Source: Crambe crambe (taxonomy: Eukaryota; Porifera; Demospongiae; Poecilosclerida; Crambeidae). Taken from it: 64,000 bases of DNA. This document shows positions 548 through 64,000 of the stretch, in pieces. The notes beneath the pieces are model-generated. The model was not told where the DNA came from. It worked only from the letters and a program-made list of their open reading frames with translations, and ran no database searches. The stretch covers positions 2,232,001 through 2,296,000 of the forward strand of contig OZ004595.1 of NCBI GenBank assembly GCA_963924555.1, written 5' to 3'. The position numbers and the translations under genes are program-made. Position 1 is the first letter of the stretch; each line of letters starts with the position of its first letter.

Positions 548-3500
548 TTAAGATGCGCCAACATTGTACTTGTCTGAGATCTTACCAGCAAGTTCATGAA
601 GCTCAATATAATTAAGAATATCGACTAATGTCTTCCAACTGACTGGCTGTAGACCAGCACCTCTGAGCCACAATTGAAATATCTCCATGTTTATAGGTCT
701 TGGATCCTTCATGTGTTTGTGAACTATAGAATCGACTTCAGTGCCAGTTGCATCCTGGAGTAGCAGAGTACCAAGGTCTTTATAATGGATGCCGATTTCT
801 TTAATGATGTTGACATGTGAACCATCACAACACTTGAACTTGATGAGCGTTGGGAGGGTGGGTTTGTCTGGGAGGAATAAACATAAGTGCTCTAGTGGTA
901 ACTCTGTATCTATTTGATGCTCACCATCTAAGTCATTGTTTGTAGATGGGTGATCAGAGGCTTGTGAAGAGATTGTTGACTCACTGCTTGTGGATGGATG
1001 ACCAGAGGATGGTAAAGTGGAGCTGATAGTTTCACACTTTCCAATAACCTATAGGACAATAATTAATAGATGATAACAATGCAATAAGTTAACACTCCAT
1101 CCTTACCTGAGGGTCTCTATCACAGAATATGCTGAACTGACTCAAGTGACAGTGCAAGTCACTGTATGTGGCACGTTTAGAGTCTCTCCAGTCAACCAAT
1201 ACTTCAAATATGGCATCTGCAGAAAGCTTTAAATCTGCTTGTTTCTGTGTGAACATCATATACACAGTCCTGCCAGCCTCGTTAGAGAAGATGCTCTTAG
1301 AAATATGCCGCAAGTAATCATCTGTGATGACATTTTCTTTCTCTGGAGAGTTGAAGAGCTGGTGAATGTTGAAGTGAGAAAATGGTTCAAAGGTGACCAA
1401 CTTCTCTAATTTGATGCTATCATGCTCAGAATTGTCACACAGAACTAATTGTAGTTGCTTACATATAGTGTGGGCTATAGATGGTAAGCTGTACAATGCA
1501 GTGTCTTCACACGATCGTGGTGGGTACTGGATGTGATCAGGGTGACAGAAGGACTCTGAAACCTCTAGTGATGGACAGATGTCTGAAACTGCTGAGGTTA
1601 TTACCTTGATCAAAGATGATCGATGGGCAAAGTAATGTGATGTTAAGTCGTGAGATGAGCTTATGCTCCGTAGCATTAGCACGACTGCCTGGCATTGCTC
1701 AGTAACTTCAACAAGACACTCCAATCCTGATCCTGTTTTCCAGGAAATGCCATTTTTCCACACTGAACAGCATCTCTGAATTGTTGGTGGATCAAAACCT
1801 ATTATTCGTCTGTTCACTACAGAAAGAGGGAAGTTGAAAGCAATTCGCAACTGCAATACTTGAAGAAATCGAGGAGTAAAAAATTCATTTGCTTGTGTGG
1901 CTTCCACAATCCAACCACATTTATTAGAGTAGTCACCATTGTCTTTCCAAATCTGCTCAGGCTTTTCAATGCTAACCAGTCCAGGAAAGAAAAAGTATCG
2001 TTGTGGATCTTTTGATTTGAGGTCACTCTCAGTTAAAAGCTGCAGAATTACTTCATCATTGATCTCTTGACAGAATTCCATGTGTGTGAGAAAACCTATC
2101 AGCATGTCTGGATCATGATGTGGAAAGTGTTTGACTAGACCAGAAAGAGTCACCACACCAGTGTTGGTGCTCAACTCCTTGAAATGCTGTCTGAAATGCT
2201 GAGGGGCAAATAGTGATCCATTCACTTTATTTAAAAGCACTTCTTTCTGCATAATCGACCAACTCTTCTCCACTTCAGACTTATTCTTTAAAAGAATGAT
2301 GTGACCCTTATTGTGCAATTCCTTACAAAGAATCAAAATATCCTCGTGTTTTGCAGGCAAGAGTCTCGCTGGACTTTCTTCTTCATTGAATTCTGGTATA
2401 GAGTCATCATCAGAATCAATGGACTCACTGTTCGCTTCCTCTTCATCTTCATTAAAGTAACGCGGATCTATTCCTGAGGAGATCCAGTGGGAAGTCAAAG
2501 TAAGAACATCACTTATAGTGATAGCTGTCAATGATTTAAAGTTATGAAGTAGAAATGCATAGAAACAGTGAAGGATGAAGTTCATTTTAGCTATGCCACA
2601 CAATTGTTTAAAACTAGCACTGAGTTGGGAACGAAGTGACACTATCTTATCAGAGTTGGGGATTCGACAATCCAGTGCAACGATAGAGACAGGCTTTGAC
2701 TGGAATTTAATAAAATTTGGTTCTAAATTTTCTCTAATGCTTCGAGTTTTTTCTTCACTTTCACAGATAGGAGGTTGATCAGCAAAGCTTAAAACTATGA
2801 CTAAGTGAGGCCTTGTACCTGATTCTGTGCCAAACTGACAATGTAAGAAATTCAACCAGTACAGGATATCCTGCTGTATATATTTGAGGTCCTTCCTAAT
2901 GTCCACTAACAAAAGGATGAGTGGGGGAGATGCAGACAATATAGTGTGTAGAATGGCTTCATGACTGGCATAATACTCACTATGGCCAGCTAAATCATAC
3001 CAGATTACAGACCCAAAGCTTTCACTCTCATAAGCTAAAGAAATTATCCCAGCGGTTAATTTTTCAGCAACCACCATATCCTGACAACCTTCACTCTTGA
3101 GAGCTTCGATGAGTGTGCTCTTACCAGTTTGATGGTTACCTATTACAATTATATTCAGTGGTGTTGGAGGTGGTTTTTCAGAAGAGTATGAATGAAAAAA
3201 ATGTTTGTAAGTGGTATAAAGGTACTGAGGGTTGGCACCATGCTCTACAAGTGTTTTTATGATGTTAGGGTGATCCAGTGGTGTGCACATTAGAGGAGTA
3301 CGGTTAACATTGTCAAGTGCATCGACATCGACTTTGGGCACAAGATACTCAACTACTCTATCACAACCTCTAAAGCAAGCAAAATGCAAAGGCCTTGCAC
3401 CTCTCAGATTAGACAAGTTGGGATCACATCCAAATTCATCACATAAGAATTTCAAGATTTCTAAATCTTCTGAACTACTCAAACAGAATTGATGCAAAAT

Positions 3501-6500
3501 TGTATTACCCTCTTTTGTTGTAACATTTGGACTACAACCATTGCTCATCAGTTTCACCTCAGACAAACCAATCCGATACCGACAAGCAAGATGTAGAGGC
3601 AATTCACCAGCATTATTCACCACATCTGTACTACATCTCTTCTCTTGTATGAGAAATTTTACAATATCACTTTTTCTGCTACTACATGCTAAGTGAAGTG
3701 GCGTGTTGCCAGCATTGTCTTGTCTGTTCACATCACAGTCAACACTTACCAACTTGATTTCATCTATGCAGAAATTAGAGTTACAAGCAAGGTGCAGAGG
3801 CAATTCCCCTTTATTGTTCACTATAGTATTACTACAGTGTCTCTCTTTCACAAGAAATCTTGCTGTGTTAGTATCATGTCTGAGACAGGCTAGATGGAGT
3901 GGTGCGTTTCCATCTCTGTCCTGAAAATTAACATCACAGCTCGCCAATAACTTTATTACTTCGAGTGAACATCCTGATCTACAGGCTATATGCAAAGGAT
4001 ATTCTTGCTTAGAATTTACAATATTTGGACTAAAATCCAACTCTTGTATCAAATGTTTGATCAAAGCACTCTGATGATTGTATGATGCCACATGTAATAT
4101 GGTATCTCCTTCTATAAGACTAGTTGGTCTAGTGCAAGCAATACCATGTTCAGAGGTGAACTTACATAATAGAGTATACACCACATCACACTTGTCAATT
4201 CCATCTATTTGTGTGTATACATCACATTGCCCAACCATCATCAAACACAAACATGCATCATAGTCCTTGTTTCTAAATGCTTCTTCAAAGAAACTTCTCA
4301 TGTTTGACTCAGAAGTTACAGCATTCAATAAAGTGAGGCCACACTGTTTAGATTCGATAGTGTGTTTGCTAGTCCTTAGTGACATAGATGCATATAATGA
4401 AGAACGACTTGTGTCAGCTTCTATGCCACATATATTCAAAGCTACATGATCAACAACACACTTTCTCTCTTCCACAAGAAACTTTACTATACCAGTGTCA
4501 CTATTGCGACATGCTATATGAAGTGGTGTGTTGCCAGCTTCATCTTGTATGTTCACATCACAACCAACACTCACTAACTGAACTATCTCTTTACCATACA
4601 TACGCATACAAGCAAGATGCAGGGGTAATTCCCCTTTGTTATTGGCCACATTAAAACCACACTTTTTCTCTTCAACAAGATATCGTACCATGTCAGTGCT
4701 ACCATTTTGACATGCCATATGAAGTGGTGTGTTGCCAGCTTCATCTTGTCTGTTCACATCACAACCAACACTCACTAACCGAACAATAGTTTTACTGTAT
4801 CGATGCTTGCAAGCAAGATGCAGGGGTAACTCCCCTTTGTTATTGGCCACATTAAAACCACACTTTTTCTCTTCAACAAGATATTGAACTATGTCAGTCC
4901 TACCATTCTGAAATGCCATTTGAAGTGGTGTGTTACCAGCTTCATCTTGTCTGTTCACATCACGACCAACACTCACTAACAGAACTATCTCTTTACCATA
5001 CATATGCTTACAAGCAAGATGCAGGGGTAATTCCCCTTTGTTATTGGCCACATTAAAATCACACTTTCTGTCTTCAACAAGATATTGTACTATGTCAGTG
5101 CTACCGTTTTGACATGCCATATGAAGTGGTGTGTTGCCAGCTTCATCTTGTCTGTTCACATCACAACCAACACTCACTAACCGAACAATAGTTTTACTGT
5201 ATCGATGCTTGCAAGCAAGATGCAGGGGTAACTCCCCTTTGTTATTGGCCACATTAAAACCACACTTTTTCTCTTCAACAAGATATTGAACTATGTCAGT
5301 CCTACCATTCTGAAATGCCATTTGAAGTGGTGTGTTACCAGCTTCATCTTGTCTGTTCACATCACAACCAACACTCACTAACTGAACTATCTCTTTACCA
5401 TACACATGCTTACAAGCAAGATGCAGGGGTAATTCCCCTTTGTTATTGGCCACATTAAAATCACACTTTCTCTCTTCAACAAGATATCGTACAATGTCAG
5501 CACTACAATTCTGACATGCCATATGAAGTGGTGTGTTACCAGCTTCATCTTGTCTGTTCACATCACGACCAACACTCACTAACAGAACTATCTCTTTACC
5601 ATACATATGCTTACAAGCAAGATGCAGGGGTAATTCCCCTTTGTTATTGGCCACATTAAAATCACACTTTCTGTCTTCAACAAGATATTGTACTATGTCA
5701 GTGCTACCGTTTTGACATGCCATATGAAGTGGTGTGTTGCCAGCTTCATCTTGTCTGTTCACATCACAACCAACACTCACTAACCGAACAATAGTTTTAC
5801 TGTATCGATGCTTGCAAGCAAGATGCAGGGGTAACTCCCCTTTGTTATTGGCCACATTAAAACCACACTTTTTCTCTTCAACAAGATATTGAACTATGTC
5901 AGTCCTACCATTCTGAAATGCCATTTGAAGTGGTGTGTTACCAGCTTCATCTTGTCTGTTCACATCACAACCAACACTCACTAACTGAACTATCTCTTTA
6001 CCATACATATGCTTACAAGCAAGATGCAGGGGTAATTCCCCTTTGTTATTTGCCACATTAACATCACACTTTTTCTCTTCAACAAGATATTGAACTATGT
6101 AAGTCCTACTATTCTGAAATGCCATATGAAGTGGTGTGTTGCCAGCTTCATCTTGTCTGTTCACATCACAACCAACACTCACTAACCGAACAATAGTTTT
6201 ACTGTATCGATGCTTGCAAGCAAGATGCAGGGGTAATTCCCCTTTGTTATTGGCCACATTAAAATCACACTTTCTCTCTTCAACAAGATATCGCACCATG
6301 TGAGTGTTACCATTCTGACATGCCATATGAAGTGGTGTGTTGCCAGCTTCATCTTGCCTGTTCACATCACAACCAACACTCACCATCTTCACCCTATCTA
6401 ATGAATGCCTAGCACAAGCCACATGCAAAGGTAGTCCATCTCCATACTCAGATATTACATCAGTACTTAGACCTACTTCATTAATCAAGTATTCTAGAAT

Positions 6501-6923
6501 TGAGCTAACTTCTTCTTCAGTGCCATGATCTCTGTTAGTCTCGCGGTGGGTGTGCAAGACTTGATCTCTGTTACAAACTACATGGAGCAGTGTACCCCTA
6601 TATCCATATTCCCTATATCTATGGTGCAATATACCCTGATATCCAAAGTTACTACGGTTACGATCCAAGTATCCATACCTGTAGTCGTTATTCCCATAGA
6701 ATCCATAACTACTGTGTTGAGTGTCAGTAGGATACTTGTACTTTTCAATGAGTGTCTTTATATCGTCAAGAGACCCATAATAGCACATGAAATGAAGAGC
6801 ACCAGCGGCATAAGTTGGTATAGATCCTGCTTCAAATCCATTTATTATCCGCAGGACTTTAGGAACATCGCGGGCTTGTACAGCTTGCTCATAAGCTTCC
6901 TTGAGCTCGATCGGCTTCGCCAT
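548..6923 (-). CDS. Gene 1: giant ankyrin-repeat / Roc-COR GTPase / Death-domain protein (about 2086 aa)
   Basis: There are three exons: 6923-1107, 1048-925 and 867-548 (stop included). Donors are GTAAGG and GTGAGC, both acceptors end in AG, and the phases (0, then 1) join cleanly. The start at 6923 (MAKPIEL) is preferred over an upstream in-frame Met because the same start is conserved in genes 3 and 5. Residues about 1-1235 are ankyrin repeats, including ten near-identical 67-residue doublets (VNRQDEAGNTPLH, NNKGELPLHLAC). A Roc-type GTPase domain follows near 1245-1410, with P-loop GNHQTGKST, a DLAGHSEY switch and SFAD where G4 is expected. COR runs to about 1850. A 41-residue Ser/Thr/Pro linker leads to the C-terminal Death domain (exon 3, with the PVSWKTLV core). 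The architecture resembles the C-terminal part of DAPK1 without kinase. A cytosolic cell-death or immune receptor role is inference. Confidence 0.88.
4527..6335 (-). repeat. 201 bp in-frame tandem repeat encoding ankyrin doublets of gene 1
   Basis: The anchor GTGTGTTGCCAGCTTCATC (or its one-base variant with TTACC) recurs every 201 bp at 4527, 4728, 4929, 5130, 5331, 5532, 5733, 5934, 6135 and 6336. Each unit encodes 67 residues, that is two ankyrin repeats. Units fall into subtypes: those at 4728, 5130 and 5733 match each other, those at 4929 and 5532 match, and those at 5331 and 5934 match. This makes a 603 bp higher-order repeat (4929-5531 versus 5532-6134). Recent unequal exchange or conversion is the simplest cause. 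Confidence 0.9.
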
Positions 6924-7040
6924 TTTGAAATCACAAGATCGCTTATTTAGAATAGTGATTCCGGAAGCTAGACGTACCTGCCCGCCCACATAATAACAAA
7001 CTGTATGGCTTCCGGAATCGATTCAGAGGGCGGCGCTCAC
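6924..7040 (-). promoter_or_regulatory. Putative compact promoter of gene 1
   Basis: Only 275 bp separate the gene 1 start from the METAP2-like stop upstream. The stretch carries two ETS-like sites in opposite orientation (CCGGAAG near 6961, CTTCCGGAA near 7009) and a GAGGGCGG box near 7026. The GAGGGCGG box recurs 35-120 bp upstream of all five giant genes. The paired ETS-like sites are seen only here and at gene 3. Transcription starts are not visible from sequence, so the assignment is inference from conservation. Confidence 0.45.
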
Positions 7041-7198: not shown

Positions 7199-8691
<1,493 letters not shown>

Positions 8692-9626: not shown

Positions 9627-9627
9627 A

Positions 9628-14206: not shown

Positions 14207-17200
14207 TTAAAATGCTTTAGCGGTTGAGATCTTGTCAGCCAGAACATAAAGCTTAATATCTTTAAGAACGTCAACTAATGTCTTCCAACTGACTGGCTGT
14301 AGACCAGCACCACTGAGCCACGATCGAAGTATCTCAAGGTTTATCGCATTTGGATTCTCCCTGTGTTTGTGAGTTATGGAGTCCACTTTAGCACCAGTTT
14401 TATCTTGAAGAAGCAGATAACCAAACTCCATGTAATGGACACTAATTTCTTCAGCAATATGGACATGTGAGCCATCACAACACTTGAACTTGATGAGAGT
14501 TGGGAGGGTGGGTTTGTCTGAGGGGGATAAACATATTTCATATAAGTGCTATAGTGGTAACTTTGTATCTATTTGATGCTCACCATCTAAGTCATTGCTT
14601 GTGGATGGATGACCAGAGGATGGTAAAGTGAAGCTGATAGTTTCACACTTTCCAATAACCTACAGGACAATAAATAGATGATAACAATGCAATAAGTTAA
14701 CACTCCATCCTTACCTGAGGGTCTCTATCACAGAATATGCTGTACTGACTCAAGTGACAGTGCAAGTCACTGTATGTGGCATGTTTAGAGTCTCTCCAGT
14801 CAACCAATACTTCAGATATGGCATCTGCAGAAAGCTTTAAATCTGCTGGTATGGTTTGTTCTTGTGTGAACATCATATACACAGTCCTGCCAGCCTCGTT
14901 AGAACAGATGCTCTTAGAAACGCGCCGCAAGTAATCATCCGTGATGACATTGTCTTTCTCTGAACAGTTGAACAGATGGTGAATATGAAAGTGAGAAAAT
15001 GGTTCAAAGGTGACCAACTTCTCTAATTCAATGCTCTCATGTTCAGGATCATCACACAGAACTAATTGTACTTGCTTACATATAGTGTGGGCTATAGATG
15101 GTAAGCTGTACAATGCAGTGTCTTCACACTCTTGTGGTGGGTACTGGATGTGATCAGGGTGACAGAAGGACTCTGAAACCTCTAGTGATGGACAGATGTC
15201 TGAAACTGCTGAGGTTATTACCTCGATCAAAGATGATCGATAGGAAATGTAATATGATGTTAAGTCTCGAGATGAGCTTATGCTCCGTAGCATTAGCACG
15301 ATTGCCTGGCATTGCTCAGTAACTTCAACAAGACACTCCAATCCTGATCCTGTTTTCCAGGAAATGCCATTTTTCCACACTGAACAACATCGCTGAATTG
15401 TTAGCGGTTCAAGAGAGAAACCTATCTTTCGTCTAGGCACTACAGAAAGAGGAAACTTGAAAGCAATTCGCAACTGCAACACTTGAAGAAATCGCAGAGT
15501 AAAAAAAAAATTTGCTTGTGTGGTTTCCATGATCCAACCACATTTATTGGAATAGTCACCATCGTCCTTCCAAATCTTCTCAGGCTTTTCAATGCTAACC
15601 AGTCCAGGAAAGAAAAAGTATCGTTGTGGATCTTTTGATTTGAGGTCATTCTCATTTAAAAGCTGCAAAATTACTTCATCGTTAATCTCTCGACAGAATT
15701 CCATGTGTGTGAGAAAACCTATCAGCATGTCTGGATCATGATGTGGAAAGTGTTTGACTAGACCAGAAAGAGTCACCACACCAGTGTTGGTGCTCAACCC
15801 CTTGAAATGCTGTCTGAAATGCTGAGGGGCAAATAGTGATCCATTCACTTCATTCAGAAGCACTTCTTTCTGGATGATCAACCAACTCTTCTCTATGTCT
15901 GATTTGTGCTTTATGAGGATGATGTGACCTTTATTGCTTAATTCTTCACACAGCCTCAAGATTTCCTTATCTTGCACAGGTAGAAGCTTAATAGGACTTT
16001 TTTCTTCAAATTTTGATTCAAATATGAAATCATCCCAATCTATGCCATCATCAGAGTCTGCATCAGTATAGGAAAGAGGATCTATTCCAGATTTGATCCA
16101 ATCTTCACTCAAAGCAAGAACTTCACTTGCTGTAATAGCAGGTTCGGATTTGAAGTTACCAAGGAGGAAAGCATAGAAACAGTGAAGGATGAAGTTCATT
16201 TTAGCTATGCCACACAACTCTTTGAAACTAGCACTGAGTTGGGAACGAAGTGACACTATCTTATCAGAGTTAGGCATTCGACAGTCCAGTGCAATCAATG
16301 AGACTGGTTCTAGCTGAAATCTTGTGGAATCTGAAGTTAAATATTTCTTGGTATTTTGAATTTTTTCTTCACTTTCCTCCACTGGAGATTGGTCAGCAAA
16401 GCTTAAAACTACAACCAAGTGAGGCCTTGTGCCCACTGATTCTGAAGGTGATTGACAATGCAAGAAATTCAACCAGTACAGGATATCCTGCTGGATATAT
16501 TCAAGGTCCTTCCTAATGTCCACTAACAAAAGGATGAGTGGAGGAGATGCAGACAATATAGTGTGTAGAATGGCTTCATGACTGGCATAATACTCACTAT
16601 GGCCAGCTAAATCATACCAGATTACAGACCCAAAGCTTTCACTCTCATGAGCTGAAGGAATTATCCCAGCAGTGAGTGCTTTAGCATGCACCATATCCTG
16701 ACAACCTTCACTCTCGAGAGCTTTGATGAGTGTGCTCTTACCAGTTCCATGTTTACCTATTACAATTATATTTAGTGGTGTTGGAGGTGGTTTTTCAGAA
16801 GAGTATGAATCAAAAAAATGTTTGTACGCGTTATAAAGGTACTGAGGGTTGGCACCATGCTCTACAAGAAGTTTTACAATTTCAGGACACTCTAATGATG
16901 TGTTCATTAGAGGAGTACAGTGAGCATTGTTCTGCATATCAACATTGACTCCTGCAACTGACACTAAATACTCCACAACATTAAAAGAGCCTTGATAGCA
17001 AGCTAAATGCAAAGGTGTGTCACCTTTCAAATTGGGGAAGTTGGGATCACTGCTCAAATCCTCACATAAGAATTTCACAACTTCTACATTACAATCACTA
17101 GTTCTACACACTTCATGTAAAGCTGTATTGCCTTCAATGGTCACAGCATTGGGATTAATACCACTGGTAACTAGTTTCACTTTATGGACATCACAATTGC

Positions 17201-20003
17201 GAGCAGCCAGATGGAGTGGTAGTTCATGGAATACATTCCTCACTGTTAAGTAGTCAACAAAGTTCGTCATCTCAACTAATCTTTCTATGAGGTAATCGTC
17301 ATCATTTCTTAATGCTATGTGCAAAATAGTGTCCTCATTTTGAGCTAACAGATCAAAGTCAGTTAAATTTTTTAGGTAGATTAATGCAGCTGATTTAATA
17401 CAACTGGATCTCTGTGGGCAACTTTCAGTGATAATAGAGTCCAAAGATAAAATTTCGTGTATCTTTTTTCCTGTTTTATTTTTTATGTTAACTGAGCAAT
17501 GCTTAGAACCCAATAACCATGATATCATATCATCCCTCATAGGATGATGCAAGCATACAAGATGGAGTGGCGTGTTTCCATCTATGTCTTGATGATCAAC
17601 ATCACAGTCCCCCAATAACTCCATCACTTCTAGTGAACATCCCAATCTACAGGCTATATGCAGAGGATATTCTTGTCTAGAGTTCATCTTGTTGAGATTA
17701 AAGTAGATGACACGAATCAAATGTTTCATCAGAGAATAACTACTCTGCCAATCGTATGATGCCACATGTAATATGGTGTCTCCTTCTATAAGACTAGTTG
17801 GTCTAGTGCAAGCAATACCATGTTCAGAGGTGAACTTACATAATAGAGTATACACCACATCACACTTGTCAATTCCATCTATTTGTGTGCATACATCACA
17901 TTCCCCAACCATCATCAAGCACAAGCATGTATCAAAGTCCTTGTTTCTAAATGCTTCTTCAAATAAAGTTCTTGAGTTTGACTCAGAAGTTCCAGCATTC
18001 AATAAAGTGAGGCCACACTGTTTAGATTTGATAGTGTGTTTGTTAGTCCTTAGTGACATAGATGCATATAATGAAGAACGACTTGTGTCAGCTTTTATGC
18101 CACATATATTCAAAGCTACATGATCAACAACACACTTTCTCTCTTCCACAAGAAACTTTACTATACCAGTGTCACTATTGCGACATGCTACATGGAGTGG
18201 TGTATTGCCGGCTTCATCTTGTCTGTTCACATCACATCCAACACTCACTAACTGAACTAGCTTTATATAATTACACTTATCATGTCTGTTCACATTCCAA
18301 TTCACTAATTGAGCACCATATCGGTGCTGGCAAGCAAGATGAAGGGGTAATTCCCCTTTGTTATTGGCCACATTAACATCACACTTTCTCTCTTCAACAA
18401 GATATTGTACTATGTCAGTGCTACCATTCTGACATGCCATATGAAGTGGTGCATTGCCAGCTTCATCTTGTCTGTTCACATCACAACCAACACTCACTAG
18501 CTTTATATATTTACACTTATCATGTCTGTTCACATTCCAAGTCACTAATTGAGCACCATATCGGTGCTGGCAAGCAAGATGAAGGGGTAATTCCCCTTTG
18601 TTATTGGCCACATTAACATCACACTTTCTCTCTTCAACAAGATATTGTACTATGTCAGTGCTACAATTCTGACATGCCATATGAAGTGGTGTATTGCCAG
18701 CTTCATCTTGTCTGTCCACATCACAACCAACACTCACTAACTGAACTATTTCTTTATCATATGTATGCTTACAAGCAAGATGCAGGGGTAATTCCCCTTT
18801 ATTATTGACCACATTTAAAAAATCACACTTTCTCTCTTCAACAAGATATCGTACAATGTCAGTGCTACCATTCTGACATGCCATATGAAGTGGTGTGTTG
18901 CCAGCTTCATCTTGTCTGTTCACATCACAACCAACACTCACTAACCGAACTATCTCTTTACCATATTTATGCTTACAAGCAAGATGCAGGGGTAATTCCC
19001 CTTTATTATTGACCACATTAAAATCACACTTTCTCTCTTCAACAAGATATCGTACAATGTCAGTTCTACCATTCTGATATGCCATATGAAGTGGTGTGTT
19101 GCCAGCTTCATCTTGTCTGTTCACATCACAACCAACAATCATTAACAGAACTATCTTTTTACCATATTTATGCTTACAAGCAAGATGCAGGGGTAATTCC
19201 CCTTTATTATTGACCACATTAAAATTACACTTTCTCTCTTTAATAAGATATTGTACTATGTCAGTGATACCATTCTGACATGCCATATGAAGTGGTGTGT
19301 TGCCAGCTTCATCTTGTCTGTTCACATCATAACCAACACTCACTAACTGAACAATAGTATTACTGTATTGATGCTTGCAAGCAAGATGCAGGGGTAACTC
19401 CCCTTTATTATTGGCCACATTAAAACCACACTTTTTCTCTTCAACAAGATATCGTACCATGTCAGTGCTACCATTCTGACATGCCACATGAAGTGGTGTG
19501 TTGCCAGCTTCATCTCGCCTGTTCACATCACAACCAACACTCACCATCTTCACCCTATCTAATGAATCCCTAGCACAAGCCACATGCAAAGGTAGTCCAT
19601 CTCCATACTCAGATATTACATCAGTACTTAGGCCTACTTCATTAATCAAATATTCTAGGATTGAGCTAACCTCTTCTTCAGTGCCACTATCTCTGTTACA
19701 AACTACATGGAGCAGTGCACCCCGATATCCATAGTCACTTTCCAAGTAGTCATTATCCCCATGACTCAGACTGCTGTATCCACCATAGATCCAATCATCA
19801 TAGATCCGACAACGGTGTCGAGTGTCAGTAGGATACTTGTACTTTTCAATGAGTGTCTTTATGTCGTCAAGAGACCCATAGTAGCACATGAAATGAAGAG
19901 CATCCGCGGCATAAGTTGGTATAGATCCTGGTTCAAATCTATTTATCATCTGCAGGACCTTACGAACATCACGGGCTTGTACAGCTTGTTCATAAGCTTC
20001 CAT
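14207..20003 (-). CDS. Gene 2: giant ankyrin / Roc-COR / Death-domain protein (about 1891 aa)
   Basis: Exons are 20003-14715, 14659-14584 and 14517-14207, with GTAAGG and GTGAGC donors, AG acceptors and compatible phases. The N-terminus (MEAYEQAVQ) lacks seven residues found after the Met in genes 1, 3 and 5, an in-frame 21 base deletion that keeps the start codon. Residues about 2-1060 are ankyrin repeats, in places spaced by an extra HDKCKYIKL-type insert. The Roc P-loop is GKHGTGKST near 1085, with DLAGHSEY after it; COR follows to about 1680. The linker exon is short (25 residues). The Death domain exon encodes the same 74-residue C-terminus as gene 5, residue for residue. That identity, with less similar ankyrin regions, points to recent conversion or duplication. 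Ligand and adaptor are unknown. Confidence 0.88.
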
Positions 20004-20050
20004 TTTGATATCACAAGATCACGTGTAACTTATTCAGAGGGCGGAGCTCG
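20004..20050 (-). promoter_or_regulatory. Putative compact promoter of gene 2
   Basis: A CACGTG E-box (20020-20025) and the conserved GAGGGCGG box (about 20037-20044) sit within 45 bp of the start codon. Genes 4 and 5 have the same pair at similar spacing, whereas genes 1 and 3 have ETS-like sites instead of the E-box. Function is inferred from conservation only. Confidence 0.42.
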
Positions 20051-20280: not shown

Positions 20281-21849
<1,569 letters not shown>

Positions 21850-35586: not shown

Positions 35587-37058
<1,472 letters not shown>

Positions 37059-46500: not shown

Positions 46501-46904
46501 TACTCAGATATTACATCAGTACTTAGACCTACTTCATTAATCAAGTATTCTAGGATTGAGCTAACCTCTTCTTCAGTGCCATGATATCTGTCACAAACCA
46601 CATGAAGCAGTGTACCCTGATATCCATAGTCACTACAGTTACCATCCCAGTATCCATAACTGTAGTCGTTATTCCCATAGAATGCATGACTACGGTGTTG
46701 AGTGTCAGTAGGATACTTGTACTTTTCAATGAGTGTCTTTATGTCGTCAAGAGACCCATAGTAGCACATGAAATGAAGAGCATCCGCGGCATAAGTTGGT
46801 ATAGATCCTGGTTCAAATCTATTTATTATCTGCAGGACCTTACGAACATCAAGGTCTTCTACAGCTTGTTCATAAGCTTTCTTGAACTCAATCGGGTTTG
46901 CCAT
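40544..46904 (-). CDS. Gene 4: giant ankyrin / Roc-COR / Death-domain protein (about 1836 aa)
   Basis: Exons are 46904-41838, 41783-41660 and 40863-40544, with the same phases as gene 1. The start is MANPIEFKKAYEQ. Ankyrin repeats cover about 1-990 and include diverged units with HDKLKYKKI inserts, plus a unique stretch around SLLSYNYHQNTMKD. The Roc P-loop is GNPSSGKST near residue 1010, the switch is DLAGQSEYY (Gln where the others have His), and COR follows with more substitutions than in the other copies. The linker and Death exons resemble gene 1 (terminal YNVSTS), not genes 2, 3 and 5. Intron 2 is 796 bp instead of about 57 bp because of an inserted element, and its acceptor side contains a 25-base homopolymer. 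Total coding length is 5511 bases including the stop. Confidence 0.86.
40872..40896. repeat. (G)25 homopolymer in intron 2 of gene 4
   Basis: On the transcribed strand this is 25 consecutive C, a few bases before the AG acceptor of the Death exon, so it replaces the usual mixed pyrimidine tract. The length may be unreliable in the assembly. Confidence 0.9.
40921..41587. mobile_element. Inverted-repeat element with RecQ-like helicase fragment in intron 2 of gene 4
   Basis: The left end reads AGCCTCGTTTCCAGGCCC and the right end, complemented, AGCCTTGTTCCCAGGCC. Further in, both ends share CCTGGTATACACTGATTGC. An 18 bp intron segment (ATAAGTGCTCTAGTGGTA) is present on both sides (40900-40917, 41622-41639) but only once in gene 1, which marks the insertion. 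About 34 bp of unexplained sequence lies between the right end and the right copy. The family is not recognised. Confidence 0.68.
41135..41320 (-). pseudogene. RecQ-type helicase fragment inside the intronic element
   Basis: The minus strand encodes a short open frame with VVSPLIALMVYQVETLR, which matches helicase motif Ia of RecQ proteins. A degraded Walker A region lies upstream (CLPTDSQTSE where LPTGSGKS is expected). Only about 60 residues remain. The missing Gly-Lys-Ser shows it is not functional. It may be a captured host fragment or the remnant of a helicase-carrying transposon. Confidence 0.6.
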
Positions 46905-46965
46905 TTTGAAATCATAAGATCACGTGTACGTGCAACTTATTCAGAGGGCGGGGCTCGCGTACTAA
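46905..46965 (-). promoter_or_regulatory. Putative compact promoter of gene 4
   Basis: A CACGTG E-box (46921-46926) and a GC box GGGCGGGG (46946-46953) lie within 50 bp of the start codon, as in gene 5. The core GAGGGCGGGGCTCGCGTA is shared exactly with gene 5. Confidence 0.45.
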
Positions 46966-47169: not shown

Positions 47170-48701
<1,532 letters not shown>

Positions 48702-52010: not shown

Positions 52011-55000
52011 TTAAAATGCTTTAGCGGTTGAGATCTTGTCAGCCAGAACATAAAGCTTAATATCTTTAAGAACGTCAACTAATGTCTTCCAACTGACTGG
52101 CTGTAGACCAGCACCACTGAGCCACGATCGAAGTATCTCAAGGTTTATCGCATTTGGATTCTCCCTGTGTTTGTGAGTTATGGAGTCCACTTTAGCACCA
52201 GTTTTATCTTGAAGAAGCAGATAACCAAACTCCATGTAATGGACACTAATTTCTTCAGCAATATGGACATGTGAGCCATCGCAACACTTGAACTTGATGA
52301 GAGTTGGGAGGGTGGGTTTGTCTGAGGGGGATAAACATATTTCATATAAGTGCTATAGTGGTAACTCTGTATCTATTTGATGCTCACCATCTAAGTCATT
52401 GCTTGTGGATGGATGACCAGAGGATGGTAAAGTGAAGCTGATAGTTTCACACTTTCCAATAACCTACAGGACAATAAATAGATGATAACAATGCAATAAC
52501 ACTCCATCCTTACCTGAGGGTCTCTATCACAGAATATGCTGTACTGACTCAAGTGAGAGTGCAAGTCACTGTATGTGGCATGTTTAGAGTCTCTCCAGTC
52601 AACCAATACTTCAGATATGGCATCTGCAGAAAGCTTTAAATCTGCTGGTATGGTTTGTTCTTGTGTGAACATCATATACACAGTCCTGCCAGCCTCGTTA
52701 GAACAGATGCTCTTAGAAACGCGCCGCAAGTAATCATCCGTGATGACATTGTCTTTCTCTGAACAGTTGAACAGATGGTGAATATGAAAGTGAGAAAATG
52801 GTTCAAAGGTGACCAACTTCTCTAATTCAACACTCTCATGCTCAGAATTGTCACACAGAACTAATTGTTCTTGCTTACATATAGTGCGGGCTATAGATGG
52901 TAAGCTGTACAATGCAGTGTCTTCACACTCTTGTGGTGGGTACTGGATGTGATCAGGGTGACAGAAGGACTCTGAAACCTCTAGTGATGGACAGATGTCT
53001 GAAACTGCTGAGGTTATTACCTTGATCAAAGATGATCGATAGGAAATGTAATGGGATGTTAAGTCTCGAGATGAGCTTATGCTCCGTAGCATTAGCACGA
53101 TTGCCTGGCATTGCTCAGTAACTTCAACAAGACACTCCAATCCTGATCCTGTTTTCCAGGAAATGCCATTTTTCCACACCGAACAACGTCGCTGAATTGT
53201 TAGCGGTTCAAGAGAGAAACCTATCTTTCGTCTAGGCACTACAGAAAGAGGAAACTTGAAAGCAATTCGCAACTGCAACACTTGAAGAAATCGCAGAGTA
53301 AAAAATTCATTTGCTTGTGTGGTTTCCACGATCCAACCACATTTATTGGAATAGTCACCATCATCCTTCCAAATCTTCTCAGGCTTTTCAATGCTAACCA
53401 GTCCAGGAAAGAAAAAGAATCGTTGTGGATCTTTTGATTTGAAATCACTCTCAGTTAAAAGCTGCAGAATTACTTCATCATTGATCTCTTGACAGAATTC
53501 CATGTGTGTGAGAAAACCTATCAGCATGTCTGGATCATGATGTGGAAAGTGTTTGACTAGACCAGAAAGAGTCACCACACCAGTGTTGGTGCTCAACCCC
53601 TTGAAATGCTGTCTGAAATGCTGAGGAGCAAATAGTGATCCATTCACTTCATTCAGAAGCACTTCTTTCTGGATGATCAACCAACTCTTCTCTATGTCTG
53701 ATTTGTGCTTTATGAGGATGATGTGACCTTTATTGCTTAATTCTTCACACAGCCTCAAGATTTCCTTATCTTGCACAGGTAGAAGCTTAACAGGACTTTT
53801 TTCTTCAAATTTTGATTCAAATATGAAATCATCCCAATCTATGCCATCATCAGAGTCTGCATCAGTATAGGAAAGAGGATCTATTCCAGATTTGATCCAA
53901 TCTTCACTCAAAGCAAGAACTTCACTTGCTGTAATAGCAGGTTTGGATTTGAAGTTACCAAGGAGGAAAGCATAGAAACAGTGAAGGATGAAGTTCATTT
54001 TAGCTATGCCACACAACTCTTTGAAACTAGCACTGAGTTGGGAACGAAGTGACACTATCTTATCAGAGTTAGGCATTCGACAGTCCAGTGCAATCAATGA
54101 GACTGGTTCTAGCTGAAACTTGCTGAAATCTGAAGCTAAATATTTCTTGATATTTTGAATTTTTTCTTCACTTTCCTCCACTGGAGATTGGTCAGCAAAG
54201 CTTAAAACTACAACCAAGTGAGGCCTTGTACCCACTGATTCTGAAGGTGATTGACAATGCAAGAAATTCAACCAGTACAGGATATCCTGCTGGATATATT
54301 CGAGGTCCTTCCTAATGTCCACTAACAAAAGGATGAGTGGAGGAGATGCAGACAATATAGTGTGTAGAATGGCTTCATGACTGGCATAATACTCACTATG
54401 GCCAGCTAAATCATACCAGATTACAGACCCAAAGCTTTCACTCTCATGAGCGGAAGGAATTATCCCAGCAGTGAGTGCTTTAGCATGCACCATATCCTGA
54501 CAACCTTCACTCTCGAGAGCTTTGATGAGTGTGCTCTTACCAGTTCCATGTTTACCTATTACAATTATATTCAGTGGTGTTGGAGGTGGTTTTTCAGAAG
54601 AGTATGAATGAAAAAAATGCTTATAAGTGATATAAAGGTGCCGAGGGTTGGCACCATGCTCTACAAGAAGTTTGACTATTTCAGGACACTCTAATGATGT
54701 GTTCATTAGAGGAGTACAGTGAGCATTGTTCTGCATATCAACATTGACTCCTGCAACTGACACTAAATACTCCACAACATTATAAGAGCCTTGAGAACAA
54801 GCTAAATGCAAAGGTGTGTCACCTTTCAAGTTGGGGAGATTGGGATCACTGATCAAATCCTCACATAAGAATTTAACTATTTCTACACCACAATCACTAG
54901 TTCTACACACTTCGTGTAAAGCTGTATTGCCTTCAATGGTCACATCATTGGGATTAATACCACTGCTAACCAGTTTCACCTTACGGAGATCACAATTGCG

Positions 55001-57610
55001 AGCAGCCAGATGGAGTGGTAGTTCATGGAATACATTCTTCATTGTTAAGTAGTCAGCAAAGTCCTCCATCTTAACTAATCTTTTTATGAGGTAATCGTCA
55101 TCATTTCTTAATGCTATGTGCAAAATAGTGTCCTTATTTTGAGCTAATAAATCAAAGTCAGTTAAATTTTTTAGGTAGATTAATGCAGCTGATTTAATAT
55201 AACTGGATCTCTGCAGGAAACTCTCAGTGATAATGGAGCCCAAAGATAGAATTTCATGTATCTTTTTTTCTGTTTTATTTTTTATGTTAACTGAACAATC
55301 CTTAGAACCCAATAACCATGATATCATATCATCCCTCATAGGATGGTGCAAGCATACAAGATGGAGTGGTGTGTTTCCATCTATGTCTTGATGATCAACA
55401 TCACAGTCCCCCAATAACTCCATCACTTCTAGTGAACATCCAAATCTACAGGCTATATGCAGAGGATATTCTTGTCTAGAGTTCATCTTGTTGAGATTAA
55501 AGTGGATGACATGAATCAAAAGTTTCATCAGAGAATAACTACTCTGCCAATTGTATGATGCCACATGTAATATGGTGTCTCCTTCTATAAGACTAGTTGG
55601 TCTAGTGCAAGCAATACCATGTTCAGAGGTGAACTCACATAATAGAGTATACACCACATCACACTTGTCAATTCCATCTATTTGTGTGTATACATCACAT
55701 TGTCCAACCATCATCAAACACAAGCATGCATCAAAGTCACTGTTTCTATATGCTTCTTCAAATAGAGTTCTCATATTTGACTTGCAAGTTACAAGAAACT
55801 TTACTATATCAGTACACAGATATTCTATCTGAAGTGGTGTGTTGCCAGCTTCATCTTGTCCGTTCAAAACACTCACTAATTTTCTATAATAACACTGGCA
55901 AACAAGATGCAGGGGTAATTCCCCTTTGTTATTGGCCACATTAACATCACACTTTCTCTCTTCAACAAGATATCGTATCATGTCAAGTGGTGTATTTCCA
56001 GCTTCATCTCGTCTGTTCACATCAAGCTTACAAGCAAGATGCAGGGGTAATTCCCCTTTGTTATTGGCCACATTAAAATCACACTTTCTCTCTTCAATAA
56101 GATATCGTACTATGTCAATGCTACCATTCTGACATGCTATATGAAGTGGTGTGCTGCCAGCTTCATCTTGTCTGTTAACATCACTTCTTACCAACAACTC
56201 TATCACTTCAAGTGAACATCCTGATCTACAGGCTATATGCAAAGGATATTCTTGCTTAGAATTTGCTATACTTGGACTAAAATCCCACACACGTATCAAA
56301 TGTTTGATCAAAGCACTCTGACGATTGTATGATGCCACATGTAATATGGTGTCTCCTTCTATAAGACTAGTTGGTCTAGTGCAAGCAATACCATGTTCAG
56401 AGGTGAACTTACATAATAGAGTATACACCACATCACACTTGTCAATTCCATCTATTTGTGTGTATACATCACATTGCCCAACCATCATCAAGCACAAGCA
56501 TGTATCAAAGTCATTGTTTCTAAATGCTTCTTCAAATAAAGTTCTCATGTTTGATTCAGAAGTTACAGCATTCAATAAAGTGAGGCCACACTGTTTAGAT
56601 TTGATAGTGTGTTTGCTAGTCCTTAGTGACATAGATGCATATAATGAAGAATGACTTGTGTCAGCTTTTATGCCACATATATTCAAAGCTACTTGATCAA
56701 CAACACACTTTCTCTCTTCCACAAGAAACTTTACTATACCAGTGTCACTATTGCGACATGCTATATGAAGTGGTGTATTGCCAGCTTCATCTTGTCTGTT
56801 CACATCACAACCAACACTCACTAACTGAACTATCTCTTTACCATACATACGCTTACAAGCAAGATGCAGGGGTAATTCCCCTTTGTTATTGGCCACATTA
56901 AAATCACACTTTCTCTCTTCAACAAGATATTGTACTATGTCAGTGCTACCATTCTGACATGCCATATGAAGTGGTGTGTTGCCAGCTTTATCTTGTCTGT
57001 TAACATCACAACCAACACTCACTAACCGAACTATCTCTTTGCCATATCCACGCTTACAAGCAAGATGCAGGGGTAATTCCCCTTTGTTATTGGCCACATT
57101 AAAATCACACTTTCTCTCTTCAACAAGATATTGTACTATGTCAGTGCTACCATTCTGACATGCCATATGAAGTGGTGTGTTGCCAGCTTCATCTTGTCTG
57201 TTCACATCACAACCAACACTCACCATTTTCACCCTATCTAATGAATGCCTAGCACAAGCCACATGCAAAGGTAGTCCATCTCCATACTCGGATATTACAT
57301 CAGTACTCAGACCTACTTCATTAATCAAGTATTCTTGGATTGAGCTAACCTCTTTTTTGGTGTCACGATATCTGTTACGAACCACATGGAGCAGTGCACC
57401 CCGATAGATCCAACTACGACGTTGAGTGTCAGTAATGAGTGTCTTTATGTCGTTAAGAGACCCATAGTAGCACACGAAATGAAGAGCACCAACGGCATAA
57501 GTTGGTATAGATCCTGGTTCAAATCCATTTATTATCCGCAGGACCTTAGGAACATCACGGGCTTGTACAGCTTGCTCATAAGCTTTCTTGAGCTCGATCG
57601 GCTTCGCCAT
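52011..57610 (-). CDS. Gene 5: giant ankyrin / Roc-COR / Death-domain protein (about 1827 aa)
   Basis: Exons are 57610-52514, 52463-52388 and 52321-52011, with GTAAGG and GTGAGC donors. The start is MAKPIELKKAYEQ. The ankyrin region (about 1-1000) is the shortest in uniform doublets but carries an internal duplication of the block around CDVVYTLLC and ACTRPTSLIEGDT. Roc has P-loop GKHGTGKST near residue 1021, DLAGHSEYY and the SFAD motif; COR follows; the Death exon is identical in its last 74 residues to gene 2. The acidic segment after Roc (DADSDDGIDWDDF) is shared with genes 2 and 3 and differs in genes 1 and 4, which splits the family into two groups. A receptor or scaffold role in cell-death signalling is inferred from domain order only. 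Confidence 0.88.
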
Positions 57611-57665
57611 TTTGAAATCACAAGATCACGTGTAACTTATTCAGAGGGCGGGGCTCGCGTACTAT
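57611..57665 (-). promoter_or_regulatory. Putative compact promoter of gene 5
   Basis: A CACGTG E-box (57627-57632) and GGGCGGGG (57646-57653) lie within 45 bp of the start, with the same order and spacing as gene 4 within a few bases. Confidence 0.45.
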
Positions 57666-57867: not shown

Positions 57868-59493
<1,626 letters not shown>

Positions 59494-62400
59494 TCAAGAT
59501 CAGATAGAAGGTCCTGATTGAAGTGGGTGTCCTTATTGGTATTCAGGGGTATGTATATTATAATGGAAGATATAATCTAGAGAGTTCATGTTGAGGAGTT
59601 CCATTGTATTCCACAGCACCTCTACAACTTACCAGCTTTCAATCTTTGACCTCTATACCAAAGTTCAAACAATCTCTTCCAAATGCTCACACATTAATTG
59701 ATTTCACCTAGAGGATAAGAAGTGCTCAAAGTAATCTTTCTATACAATGAGACCAACTAAATTATTTTCAGGAACATAGACCTTTTGGAGTCTGAAGATC
59801 TTGAAATTTTTGACCACCTCTCACCCCATGGACCCAATGGTGTAGAATTCCCTCTAGTGGTCTCAATCAAAAATACATCACAGTTCTAGTTGCATTGAAA
59901 AAACCACTAGAATAAAGAATAAATTGGTAAAGGTCTTCAGCAGTTCTAGCATTCTAAGCCTGCTATATGGATACCCTTTACCAACTCAAGTACACAGATA
60001 CATTTCAATACATACCTTGATCACTTACTGGCAGCTGGAACATGGAATCAGAATGAAACTTCAAAGTACTGGAATGTGGAACAGGATTTGGATGATATGG
60101 CACTGCATGAGAGATAACAAACATGAATCACACAGAGATGGTTTGTTGTAAGGATAAACTTACAGCATAAGAATCCATTACATGTCCAATTGATCATTCC
60201 TGTGATGGAACTGAAGTCTCAACTTGAGAGTAGAGCAGTCACACAGTTTGCCAGATGACTGCAATCAGACTGCAGTGAAGAATGACATTTGGTGTGTTGC
60301 TTCACTGAAGTAGATTTATATTGCACATCTTACAATGTCCTCAAGAATGCATCAAGACATCACGAATCTGCTTCACCAAACTGTGGTATCTCCAGGGTCA
60401 CATTTCACTCTTCTTTTAGTTCATAATCCAGATTTGGTTTCCCATGTCTTTCCAGAGGAGACACATCAGGATGGATGACGAGGTGACTGGAATGGGAATC
60501 AGTCAGGGAATGAGAAACAGCTTGTCAGGGAATGGGAATCAGTCAGGAAATGGTATTAGTTGCAGTATGACCTATAGAGGATAGGGAAAGACATTTAAGA
60601 ATTTCAGCCAGGATAAGACTGAAACATCAAGGCCAGACATAAATACTTCACTATACCTACACATACTGTGACCAAATACTTTTAAGAGTACACATTGGAT
60701 ACCCTTTACCAACTCAAGTACACAGATTTACATCAATAATCATGTACCCTGAGCAGTTACTGGATTTCCACACAATGAATGATGAATGTATGGTGGAAAT
60801 GGAACCAGAATTGAGTTCTTGGCATTGGAATGAATGCACACTGATTTGGATTGCAATATGTGGAGAACCAGAGATGGTTTGTTGTAAGGATAAACTTACA
60901 GCATAAGAAGTACTTCATGACCCATTGTCCAATGATCATTCCTGTGGTGGAAATTTGAGAGTATGCATACAATAATACAGCTGACAATCTTCACACTAAT
61001 GATGATGTAATCATAATAAAACATCTTACAATGTCCTCAGATTATTCCAAGACATCATGAAAACTGTTGTTTTTTTTTGCTGGCTGAGGGTTGATCTTAA
61101 CGTAACTCCTTCACTTTATCCTGGTGACTGAAGGGTCTTGTTTTACTCAGCACCACTGTCATGCCACTTTTAGATATAGTTTCCAGGTAGGTGGATGTCA
61201 CATGACTTAATATCACACCATCTCAGGGTCTTCGAGTCATAATTCATATTTTGGTCTCTCCTATGCTTCACGTCCTTCCAGTGATTGCTTCATTTCATAG
61301 AAATGTTTTTTTCCTATGCTTCATTGGTGACTTGTAAATGATGCAGCATGACCTATAAGAGAATACATCAAGGACAGATAAAAATCTACCAATAGTACTT
61401 TAATGAGTAAGTCCCCGTCAATTAATAAGGAGGTGAGGTACCCAAAGCAAGTCATCCTCTCCATTGATGAAAGGTCAGAGTTCACAGACCACGAATACAC
61501 CCACCAATGAATACATGATAAAGTACACAAAAGCAACCACCCACTGTGAATGCACTTAAAGAAACCATGAATGCACACACCTGGTGTCTGTTAGACACAA
61601 CAGTGTATTATGGTAACTGGTCCATTTCATACAGGTAAAAAATATTCAATGTCATGTCCATGGAAAATGCAGCAAAGCTAATTGCAGGTTTTCCCCCAGA
61701 CATCTTAAGGCATAGTGGCCATAGCTAGGTCATTTTGCCCCCTGGTTTACCACACATCCATTGTCATGGCACACTAACTCACCTCCTTCAATCAGTTCAA
61801 AGAGTTTTCCAGGACCACTTGAATGTCTGTGGTCCTACAGGAAACAGTAGTGGGCAAATTAAATAGAAAAACATGACCTACAGGACAAAACACATAACCA
61901 ATTGACCTGTATGTGGTTTAATACAAACATTCAGTGTGGTTTTCCCTTGATATGTACTTATAAGGACATTGTGTACATGAACACACACAGGAAGAATATT
62001 AGCACTGACTCAAACACACACAGCACAGAATTGCAGTGAGTGTGACATTACATGACATACCTGCATTTCTTACATGTCACTGCCAGTGGGACTGACATCA
62101 CATGGACTGGGGTGGACTGGACACACACAGGAGAACACTGCAGTCAATGGCTGTCAAGAACACTTTTCACAGTAACTCCTGACAGAGATCATGTACCATG
62201 AACTTTTAAGTGGTGACGGAGTGTGTTGGTCGAGGAAACAAGCTTGAGGAATGAGAAATCTCTTGGAATATAGCACCCTGAATATTTCTTGTGTGAGGAT
62301 AAACAGCATACCAAAACCAGCATCAACCAGTTAGTCTGTCTGTAAACCTGCAATCTTGACAGTCTATCCGTCTGTCTACCTGCCTGATAGTCCATCAATC

Positions 62401-62560: not shown

Positions 62561-62561
62561 C

Positions 62562-62563
<2 letters not shown>

Positions 62564-62653: not shown

Positions 62654-62656
<3 letters not shown>

Positions 62657-62859: not shown

Positions 62860-62990
62860 GGGAGTGGCAAGCGAAGCTTTAGCCTATGACATCGCCATAT
62901 TGTAAAGGACGGAATGCAAAGCATTGTGGCAAGCAAAGCTTTGGCTGATGACGTCACCATATTGCAAAGGATGGAACCAGAAGAAGATAC
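62860..62990. repeat. Two imperfect copies of a 60-70 bp repeat
   Basis: GTGGCAAGCGAAGCTTTAGCC followed by ATGACATCGCCATATTG is echoed by GTGGCAAGCAAAGCTTTGGC and ATGACGTCACCATATTG. Nearby ACTCCCTAG and CTAGGGAGT form an inverted pair. It may be part of a mobile element that I cannot delimit. Confidence 0.55.
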
Positions 62991-63243
62991 ATACGATATA
63001 TATAGTGCCACTTTCATTCAACCCCCTAGTGGCTCGCTTCACTTGCAATTAATATTGTGTTCTTACCATTGTAACCTACTACTCTAATAAATGCCCACTC
63101 TTTCTACTATTGGTCATTACCATAACAAACTAACACACCAATTGTCTCAAACTCTGCCTCTGCTTCCTATCATTCTTCACATCATTAATTAGCATGCCCA
63201 CTCAAACTACTTTAAGCCTGACTTCAACACTCTCAACTCTTAC

Positions 63244-63876
63244 TTTGGATCTTCTTTGCCATCACTGCATGACCACATTCTTTCAATGCAGCTGCAAGTT
63301 TGTCCCATGAAGCTTCTCCATCGTTATCAGTCCAGTAAGTGATAACATCCATTAACACTCCATCAGCATCATTAGGATGGTTTGTTTCAAAAGTAGAAAC
63401 TTGTCCCGGTGGTATGTTGAGACACACACCCAGTTTTCTAGCTTTGCCGGCAGGAAAATATTCTTCATTTAGGAATCTTATAACTTTGTTGGCTTCCAGG
63501 GGTAGGCTGATTGTATCTGGGAGAGAAAAAAATAAGCGCCATGGTAATTTTCATACGTATTTCTAGTACCACAGGCTGGTTTGTACTCGGCTAATATGGA
63601 TAATGATCCACACCCTCTTGTTGAGAATTGCAAATAGCGTGGAGTGACCCCACTCATAATAGGTGAACTAGCATCAAGGTGACTTAAGTTCCAAGGCTCC
63701 ATGGTAAAGGGTACGCAAAAATAATATTGAGGTGTTCTAACATGCACTGATTCTAATACATGTGATGGTCTTAGCTAATTGTCGTGTCTGGTGGCTCATG
63801 TAGTTACCATACCTTCTTTCTTCCAATTATTAGCACCATCCTTAATAGTGTCATCCCTGCTGTACTTGACACTAGT
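63244..63876 (-). CDS. Gene 6 (partial): death-fold exon related to the extra domains of gene 3
   Basis: The exon 63516-63244 starts after CAG in phase 1. It encodes a death-fold domain (KVIRFLNEEYFPAGKAR, EASWDKLAAAL, MAKKIQ) that aligns with the two extra domains of gene 3. A likely upstream exon, 63876-63813, is open in phase 0, ends in phase 1 before GTATGG and joins it in frame. Downstream, either the GTAAGA donor is used, or translation runs four codons to a TGA at 63233. The cassette and terminal Death exons of gene 3 are missing or decayed here, so this may be a shorter gene or a fragment. Any ankyrin and Roc-COR part would lie beyond the right edge. Confidence 0.55.
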
Positions 63877-64000
63877 CTGGTCAGTAGCATGTTCTAAATA
63901 TCAAAAATTAGTGCATGCATTTTTTCACACAAATTCATGCAGTTGAGAAAAAGAAAAAAGAAAAGAAAAAAAAGCATCAAGTGCACAAATAGCAAGAAAA
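63877..64000. other. Right edge, no feature recognised
   Basis: AT-rich sequence with an A/G-rich tract near 63950-63980. If gene 6 continues, this is intron. Confidence 0.5.

Follow-up and report, generated by a model that had tools for sequence, protein, structure and literature searches.

A tandem array of giant genes with ankyrin, Roc-COR-like and Death-type domains in the sponge Crambe crambe, a candidate family of cytosolic sensors

Which class of proteins is encoded by giant genes that lie head to tail and combine ankyrin repeats, a Roc-type GTPase and Death-type domains, and might such proteins act as receptors? The question arises for a stretch of 64,000 bp of the Crambe crambe genome (contig C18, positions 2,232,001-2,296,000, of a 143-Mb assembly with 119 contigs; hereafter the window), for which an earlier note had proposed a cluster of five such genes as a candidate receptor locus. 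Our best reading, to which we assign a probability of roughly one half, is an expanded family of kinase-less, DAPK-like Roco proteins that would act as cytosolic sensors in recognition and cell death.

Five giant open frames, each 1711-1977 codons long, occupy the minus strand of the window. In each of them an ankyrin region (Pfam Ank_2, E-values from 9.4e-105 to 1.1e-181) is followed by a GTPase and a COR-like region. The exon plan is common to all five genes as well: the giant exon ends in a donor of the form CAG/GTAAGG, the acceptor (T)AG/GTT follows 50-58 bases on, and past this short intron a linker rich in Ser, Thr and Pro leads to Death-type readings. The single strand, domain order and exon plan described in the earlier note are therefore confirmed, as is its observation that the genes differ in the number of ankyrin doublets (9, 6, 5, 5 and 2 strict doublets in genes 1-5) and in the Death content of their tails. 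Its count of five complete genes is reduced to four: genes 1, 2, 4 and 5 are unbroken from the start Met to the donor, but the giant exon of gene 3 is split by a DNA transposon (Table 1). No kinase was found before the ankyrin region; the giant frames begin with an N-terminal cap, upstream of which lies a relic of a METAP2 gene. Two of the upstream gaps (three frames each) contain no match to a Pfam family, a weak test that also missed the METAP2 relics located there. Families of leucine-rich repeats (LRR) are absent from the Pfam matches of the five giant frames, in all of which ankyrin precedes Roc-COR, and so are NACHT and NB-ARC (E<=1). The hydropathy of any 19-residue stretch in these frames is at most 1.82, and the top stretch lies within the G domain.

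The cluster extends beyond the window. Using the Roc-COR region of gene 4 as query, 16 close copies are found at C18:2,201,129-2,403,619 (about 203 kb), all on the minus strand, so the five units of the earlier note are the part of a larger array that falls within the window. A 17th close copy (L023) is located about 1 Mb from the array, at C18:1,193,241 on the plus strand. The synonymous divergence (dS) of Roc-COR between the copies is 0.04-0.62 with a median of 0.30 (136 pairs, 17 copies), which rules out that the copies are assembly duplicates of one locus, an outcome that the earlier note had named as refuting. The copies are real paralogs under constraint: the ratio of nonsynonymous to synonymous divergence (dN/dS) of Roc-COR has a median of 0.35 (range 0.25-0.44) across the same pairs, and the giant-exon donor is present in all 16 array copies (L023 was left out of this count). 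Three merged searches, with same-strand hits no more than 1.5 kb apart joined, give 99 distinct Roc-COR loci genome-wide. An open frame of at least 800 codons is found at 92 of these loci, and a scored Pfam Death domain within 4 kb downstream at no fewer than 43. The latter number is a floor, because the Death search scored 150 of 965 candidates (48 of these 150 rows entered the count); the window array contributes none of the 43. The ankyrin scan of the wider family covers a sample of ten sequences. Ankyrin is over the cut-off in seven giant frames, six of which also match Roc at E<=0.05 (L036 does not); the remaining three are a sequence under the ankyrin cut-off (L028), an LRR-Roc gene (L008) and a Death tail.

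We note three further groups of loci. Giant Roc-COR frames, many of them followed by a Pfam Death domain, also cluster at C18:5.25-5.59 Mb, C17:2.86-3.21 Mb and C15:1.39-1.69 Mb. Strong Roc matches (78-83 bits) in long frames occur at C13:7356229-7381334 and C21:590968-598549, and the one scanned (L008) is an LRR-Roc-COR gene. Contigs C8 and C10 harbor many loci whose Roc match spans positions 2-89; their open frames comprise roughly 600-1,300 codons, and they may represent another GTPase family.

The GTPase is identified as Roc only through relatives in the same genome. In all five window frames Roc scores below the Pfam cut-off of 27 bits (15.4-23.3 bits), and MMR_HSR1 passes its own cut-off in three. 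The region after the GTPase can be aligned with relatives in the same genome, and a profile of 15 sequences (A1; the five window copies and ten relatives) was compared with the solved structures in PDB. The first match is the Roc-COR unit of LRRK2 (E 1e-16); an archaeal Roco protein is matched with E 4e-6, and the top match that is not a Roco protein (E 5e-4) covers the P-loop only. The match to LRRK2 reaches position 273 of 675, past Roc, and that to the archaeal protein spans positions 4-349. Roc itself is matched by all 15 members of the profile (E<=1), two of which also show a weak match to nSTAND3 (best E 0.039). The window profile also matches the LRR-Roc gene L008 (probability 93.7, E 1.9e-7), which scores 78.9 bits for Roc and 66 bits for COR-A. 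Because the window copies are tied to the LRRK2 Roc-COR unit through their relatives, the Roc assignment is, by transitivity of the profile matches, secure; the region after Roc is, as judged from sequence, probably a COR domain. The P-loop GxxxxGKST is kept in 17 of 17 copies, as is a switch-II motif, D(L/V)AG(Q/H)xEYYAS, with His in place of Gln in four.

The tails carry two types of Death-type domains. Type A exceeds the Pfam Death cut-off of 22.6 bits twice in gene 3 and equals it in a tail at the far end of the window (Table 1), and all 12 examples match Pfam Death at E<=1. Type B is found in all five window genes, with 12.0-16.5 bits and hence under the cut-off in the four that were scanned (genes 1-4), and is related to type A (hhalign 98.5%, E 2e-15). 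At least one reading of type A or B, judged by eye, lies within 1.5 kb downstream of each of the 17 copies. The first Death type differs even between close paralogs, such as gene 3 (type A) and gene 2 (type B) with a Roc-COR dS of 0.07. On a Roc-COR tree of 17 sequences it changes five times, compared to an average of 5.9 for shuffled labels (five changes or fewer in 659 of 2000 shufflings), and the tail type is therefore unrelated to the tree. We dropped inherited tail swaps as a reading of this pattern, as the number of changes is within the shuffled range. Copies placed closest together on the tree are often not adjacent in the array. Exchange would explain the differing tails of close paralogs; loss from an ancestor with both types could do so as well, since gene 3 and the copy L025/L026 carry both. 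We also considered, and dropped, a Death-like region in the last part of the giant exon: it is sub-threshold in L037 (16.1 bits) and L043 (17.4 bits) only, and has no Pfam match in a window copy, L029, L033 and L027.

The Pfam search suggested in the earlier note thus has a divided outcome: ankyrin is strong and type A Death passes, but Roc and type B stay under their cut-offs and COR-A is unmatched in the window. The combination of ankyrin, Roc, a probable COR and Death holds, by way of the wider-family profile and the Death-type tails.

In the 27 doublets of the window, 25 of them unique, the amino-acid changes cluster in columns 25-32 and 58-65, which we take to run from the last part of helix A across the loop into the first part of helix B. 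On this face dN/dS is 0.92 (bootstrap 0.73-1.13), versus 0.41 (0.35-0.50) elsewhere in the doublet. The same columns give 0.94 versus 0.29 in 43 doublets outside the window, of which 41 are unique; of 33 positions of the column frame across these 41 doublets, the chosen one ranks first for dN and second for dN/dS, after its +1 neighbour (1.08). For all 71 doublets (67 unique) the values are 0.88 (bootstrap 0.77-1.07) for the face and 0.31 (0.28-0.35) for the rest. The localisation of amino-acid change to a helix-loop-helix face is real. DNA-identical doublets occur within single genes and therefore indicate recent turnover of the repeats. Positive selection on the face is not accepted: a dN/dS of about 0.9 does not exceed 1 and so gives no demonstration of diversifying selection, and we rely neither on the +1 frame nor on a subset termed 'helix B end' (1.57, with few synonymous changes). 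The variable recognition part postulated in the earlier note is supported to the extent that change is focused on one doublet face.

The value of 0.9 is also what ordinary DAPK-like signalling or scaffold proteins might display if they were expanded in tandem with no recognition role and the variation of the helix face reflected relaxed constraint. Turnover by itself alters the number of repeats, and the units spread along with a useless METAP2 relic. However, a housekeeping scaffold would hardly call for as many as 99 Roc-COR loci in several clusters, and the contrast is confined to one face because the rest of the doublet is constrained. We consider this explanation unlikely, albeit one to be taken seriously. 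Less probable still is a locus of self/non-self (allo)recognition, whose copies and alleles would vary between individuals and trigger death at contact zones. The large tandem array, the variation in repeat number and the death-type tails would suit such a role, and the design resembles that of fungal incompatibility proteins with near-identical repeats; the evidence comes from one assembly only, however, and hydropathy, the sole check for membrane insertion or secretion, showed no signal.

Each gap upstream of a window gene contains pieces of METAP2, and the relic is broken in all five cases by stops, frame shifts, a deletion or an inversion. Past the edge of the array, near C18:2,417,149-2,419,404, lies a parent-like METAP2 gene whose fourth piece was identified as METAP2 from its sequence (E 1e-35). 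The array therefore holds its own control: the relics of the window units decay, in contrast to most of the giant frames. In 14 of the 16 array copies the cap, the P-loop and the exon end lie in one unbroken frame of 1,336-2,070 codons. That the array is largely decaying, with most copies unexpressed or pseudogenes, is highly improbable, since the two broken frames, the inserts within two of the five window genes and the decayed METAP2 relics are set against these 14 open frames, the low dN/dS of Roc-COR at dS up to 0.62 and a donor that is intact in every array copy.

The preferred reading, an expanded family of cytosolic sensors, suggests the following mechanism. The predicted protein would be cytosolic: an extended solenoid of ankyrin repeats would precede the Roc-COR GTPase unit, and a flexible linker would carry between one and three Death-type domains. 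The ankyrin doublets, variable in sequence and in copy number, would use their helix-loop-helix face to contact a target, which may be a non-self molecule or a host protein that has been altered. In known Roco proteins the Roc-COR unit undergoes changes of nucleotide state and dimerisation; binding of the target may induce such a shift. The Death tails would then cluster with the Death domains of adaptor proteins and might thereby elicit cell death or NF-kB-type signalling, with a putative role in immunity.

Several results weigh against this reading. With regard to the ankyrin region, a face dN/dS of about 0.9 fits relaxed constraint as well as diversifying selection, and the beta-turn tips, with which many ankyrin proteins bind their partners, show the strongest conservation of all classes tested (dN/dS 0.09 in the window doublets, 0.19 in all doublets). 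With regard to the switch, Pfam COR-A is matched by 4 of the 15 members of profile A1 (E<=1, best 0.0007) and by no copy in the window. When the profile is built from the five window copies alone, its PDB matches are only weak, the Roc domain of LRRK2 (E 0.15) being placed behind an immunity-related GTPase (E 0.13). The script located the G4 motif in 10 of 17 copies, in the unusual form SFAD: well-studied GTPases have THxD or NKxD. The predicted structures, based on window-only alignments, have a low mean predicted local distance difference test score (pLDDT), namely 31.8 for Roc-COR and 41.9 for type B Death. With regard to the tails, type B has no match to the canonical Death tail of the relative L037, and neither type has a significant solved relative (best for type B is the Fas Death domain, E 0.44). 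The pattern of Death types, covering flanks of 1.5 kb, is by itself no proof of exchange. Finally, two of the 16 array frames are broken, gene 3 by its transposon and the copy at 2333300 with its N-terminal part in another frame.

Table 1. Coordinates of the features in the window, counted from its first base; bits refer to Pfam Death (cut-off 22.6) unless another family is named.
Feature	Position	Strand	Remarks
Giant open frames, genes 1-5	1089-7022, 14697-20018, 27876-33395, 41784-46919, 52391-57625	-	1977, 1773, 1839, 1711, 1744 aa
Gene 1 tail: Ser/Thr/Pro linker and type B Death	551-1048	-	15.2 bits, under cut-off
Gene 1 giant exon: N-terminal cap, strict ankyrin doublets (9), Roc GTPase, COR-like	1107-6923	-	1939 codons
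METAP2 relic upstream of gene 1	7205-8652	-	frame shift, deletion
Gene 2 type B Death	14210-14548	-	15.2 bits, under cut-off
Gene 2 giant exon: Ank, Roc, COR-like	14715-20003	-	1763 codons
METAP2 relic upstream of gene 2	20284-21813	-	stops, frame shifts
Gene 3 type B Death	25040-25402	-	16.5 bits, under cut-off
Gene 3 Ser/Thr/Pro repeat linker	25410-26117	-	two basic clusters, by eye similar to nuclear localisation signals
Gene 3 second type A Death	26158-26595	-	23.3 bits, over cut-off
Gene 3 tail exon: linker and type A Death	27344-27838	-	28.9 bits, over cut-off
Gene 3 rest of giant exon: Ank, Roc, COR-like	27894-33392	-	
IS1595-type DNA transposon splitting gene 3	33393-34880	- (transposase pieces)	1,488 bp; 35-bp perfect terminal repeats; 8-bp target duplication
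Gene 3 N-terminal part of giant exon	34881-35296	-	severed by transposon
METAP2 relic upstream of gene 3	35593-37019	-	frame shifts
Gene 4 reading with type B Death	40547-40990	-	12.0 bits, under cut-off; first 48 bases overlap the 602-bp insert
Insert between gene 4 linker and Death reading	40943-41544		602 bp; 32-bp inverted ends, 94% complementary
Gene 4 post-intron linker reading	41634-41783	-	
Gene 4 giant exon: Ank, Roc, COR-like	41838-46904	-	1689 codons; Roc 23.3 bits, MMR_HSR1 28.5 bits
METAP2 relic upstream of gene 4	47173-48662	-	fifth piece inverted (48022-48219, + strand)
Gene 5 type B Death	52014-52352	-	by alignment with other type B tails
Gene 5 giant exon: Ank, Roc, COR-like	52514-57610	-	1699 codons; fewest strict doublets (2)
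METAP2 relic upstream of gene 5	57871-59694	-	stops, frame shift
Type A Death, assigned from its position to the tail of the next gene in the array, whose giant exon is beyond the window (Roc-COR at C18:2299431-2301602)	63236-63550	-	22.6 bits, at cut-off

Of the two inserts listed in Table 1, the element in gene 3 carries a transposase part that matches DDE_Tnp_IS1595 (68.7 bits); the animal group of IS1595-type transposons is named Merlin. The insert in gene 4 contains short readings, one of them with a weak match to a DEAD helicase (13 bits, cut-off 26). Adjoining the parent-like METAP2 gene are two similar gene copies of about 280 codons each (L041/L042, C18:2411994-2416211).

A search of 84,980 prokaryote species resulted in 46 pattern matches and one confirmed relative, a contig of 3,960 bp (L043) in a Nitrosopumilus bin denoted HM_N. 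It encodes an animal-type gene of the same architecture, with a frame of 988 codons in which ankyrin is over the cut-off and Roc under it (18.8 bits), and a Death domain in the next exon (33 bits). The frame is 48% identical over 922 residues to a relative in the Crambe crambe genome, at C18:5.45 Mb. A thaumarchaeal symbiont of the sponge Hymedesmia (Stylopus) methanophila has been described (PMC7848895), and we infer that HM_N stands for this symbiont. The contig is probably sponge host DNA misplaced in the archaeal bin. A prokaryote origin of the family was rejected, as its sole confirmed match sits on this host-like contig.

How does the family compare with known systems? NOD-like receptors (NLRs) combine a repeat sensor, an NTPase switch and a death-fold domain. 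The window family shares this plan, but has a Roc-COR GTPase where NLRs have a NACHT or NB-ARC ATPase. Tentatively, and with somewhat more doubt than confidence, we propose that sponges use the Roc-COR GTPase in place of the NACHT ATPase as the switch of a large, arrayed and recombining family of death-coupled cytosolic sensors, with about 100 or more genes in the Crambe crambe genome and with Death tails that vary independently of the switch. If so, an early animal lineage would have built the NLR plan of repeat sensor, NTP switch and death-fold output a second time, from another switch; the Roc-COR unit of the Parkinson-linked LRRK2 would serve as a mass-produced recognition switch. The family would then constitute a receptor class parallel to NLRs, with more Roco genes than the published counts considered here (up to 47, PMC11378527).

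Among Roco proteins, reviews distinguish LRR-Roc-COR, LRR-Roc-COR-kinase and DAPK1 (PMC6337361, PMC6320773), and a kinase-less ankyrin-Roc-COR-Death protein is outside these types as they are stated there. The comparison with DAPK1 made in the earlier note is fair as a matter of architecture: both have the order ankyrin, Roc, a COR or COR-like region and Death with no LRR (PMC6337361, PMC6320773). The Death domain after COR is over the Pfam cut-off in gene 3 and, in genes with type B only, is indicated by sub-threshold scores (12.0-15.2 bits) together with the relation to type A. DAPK1 differs by the kinase before its ankyrin region (PMC6320773, PMC6337361), whereas none was found in the window genes, which are many and in tandem, with one giant exon, variable ankyrin doublets and up to three Death-type domains on a repeat linker. 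LRRK2 and prokaryotic Roco proteins are the nearest solved Roc-COR structures according to the wider-family profile; LRRK2, however, has LRR, kinase and WD40 domains (PMC6337361), none of which is matched by Pfam in the five giant frames.

With respect to sponges, ankyrin-repeat genes change in response to microbial cues (PMC6208332, PMC8242945), as do Death-domain genes (PMC6208332), neither finding being tied to the window family. An expansion of proteins with death-fold and ankyrin parts is known from Amphimedon; these are built on TRADD-N, and the account given describes no Roc-COR switch (PMC8195603). In Trichoplax at least 17 Roco genes are known, some of which also encode CARD or death domains, a further case of early-animal Roco proteins joined to death-fold domains; their partners are varied, and the word 'ankyrin' is absent from the main text (PMC4104024). 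In the open-licence literature, judged by title and the start of the abstract, we found no ankyrin-Death Roco family in large tandem arrays. The idea of Roco proteins as receptors is not new, given these Trichoplax genes and the LRR-ROCO genes of brown algae, proposed as immune receptors with shuffled repeats and numbering 9-47 per species (PMC4104024, PMC11378527). The brown-algal family is similar in its expansion, its rapidly changing repeat region and its proposed recognition role. It has LRRs on separate, shuffling exons and the LRR-ROC-COR layout only, and its genes are mostly dispersed in N. decipiens (PMC11378527), whereas the family described here combines ankyrin doublets within one exon, tandem arrays, death-type tails and 99 loci.

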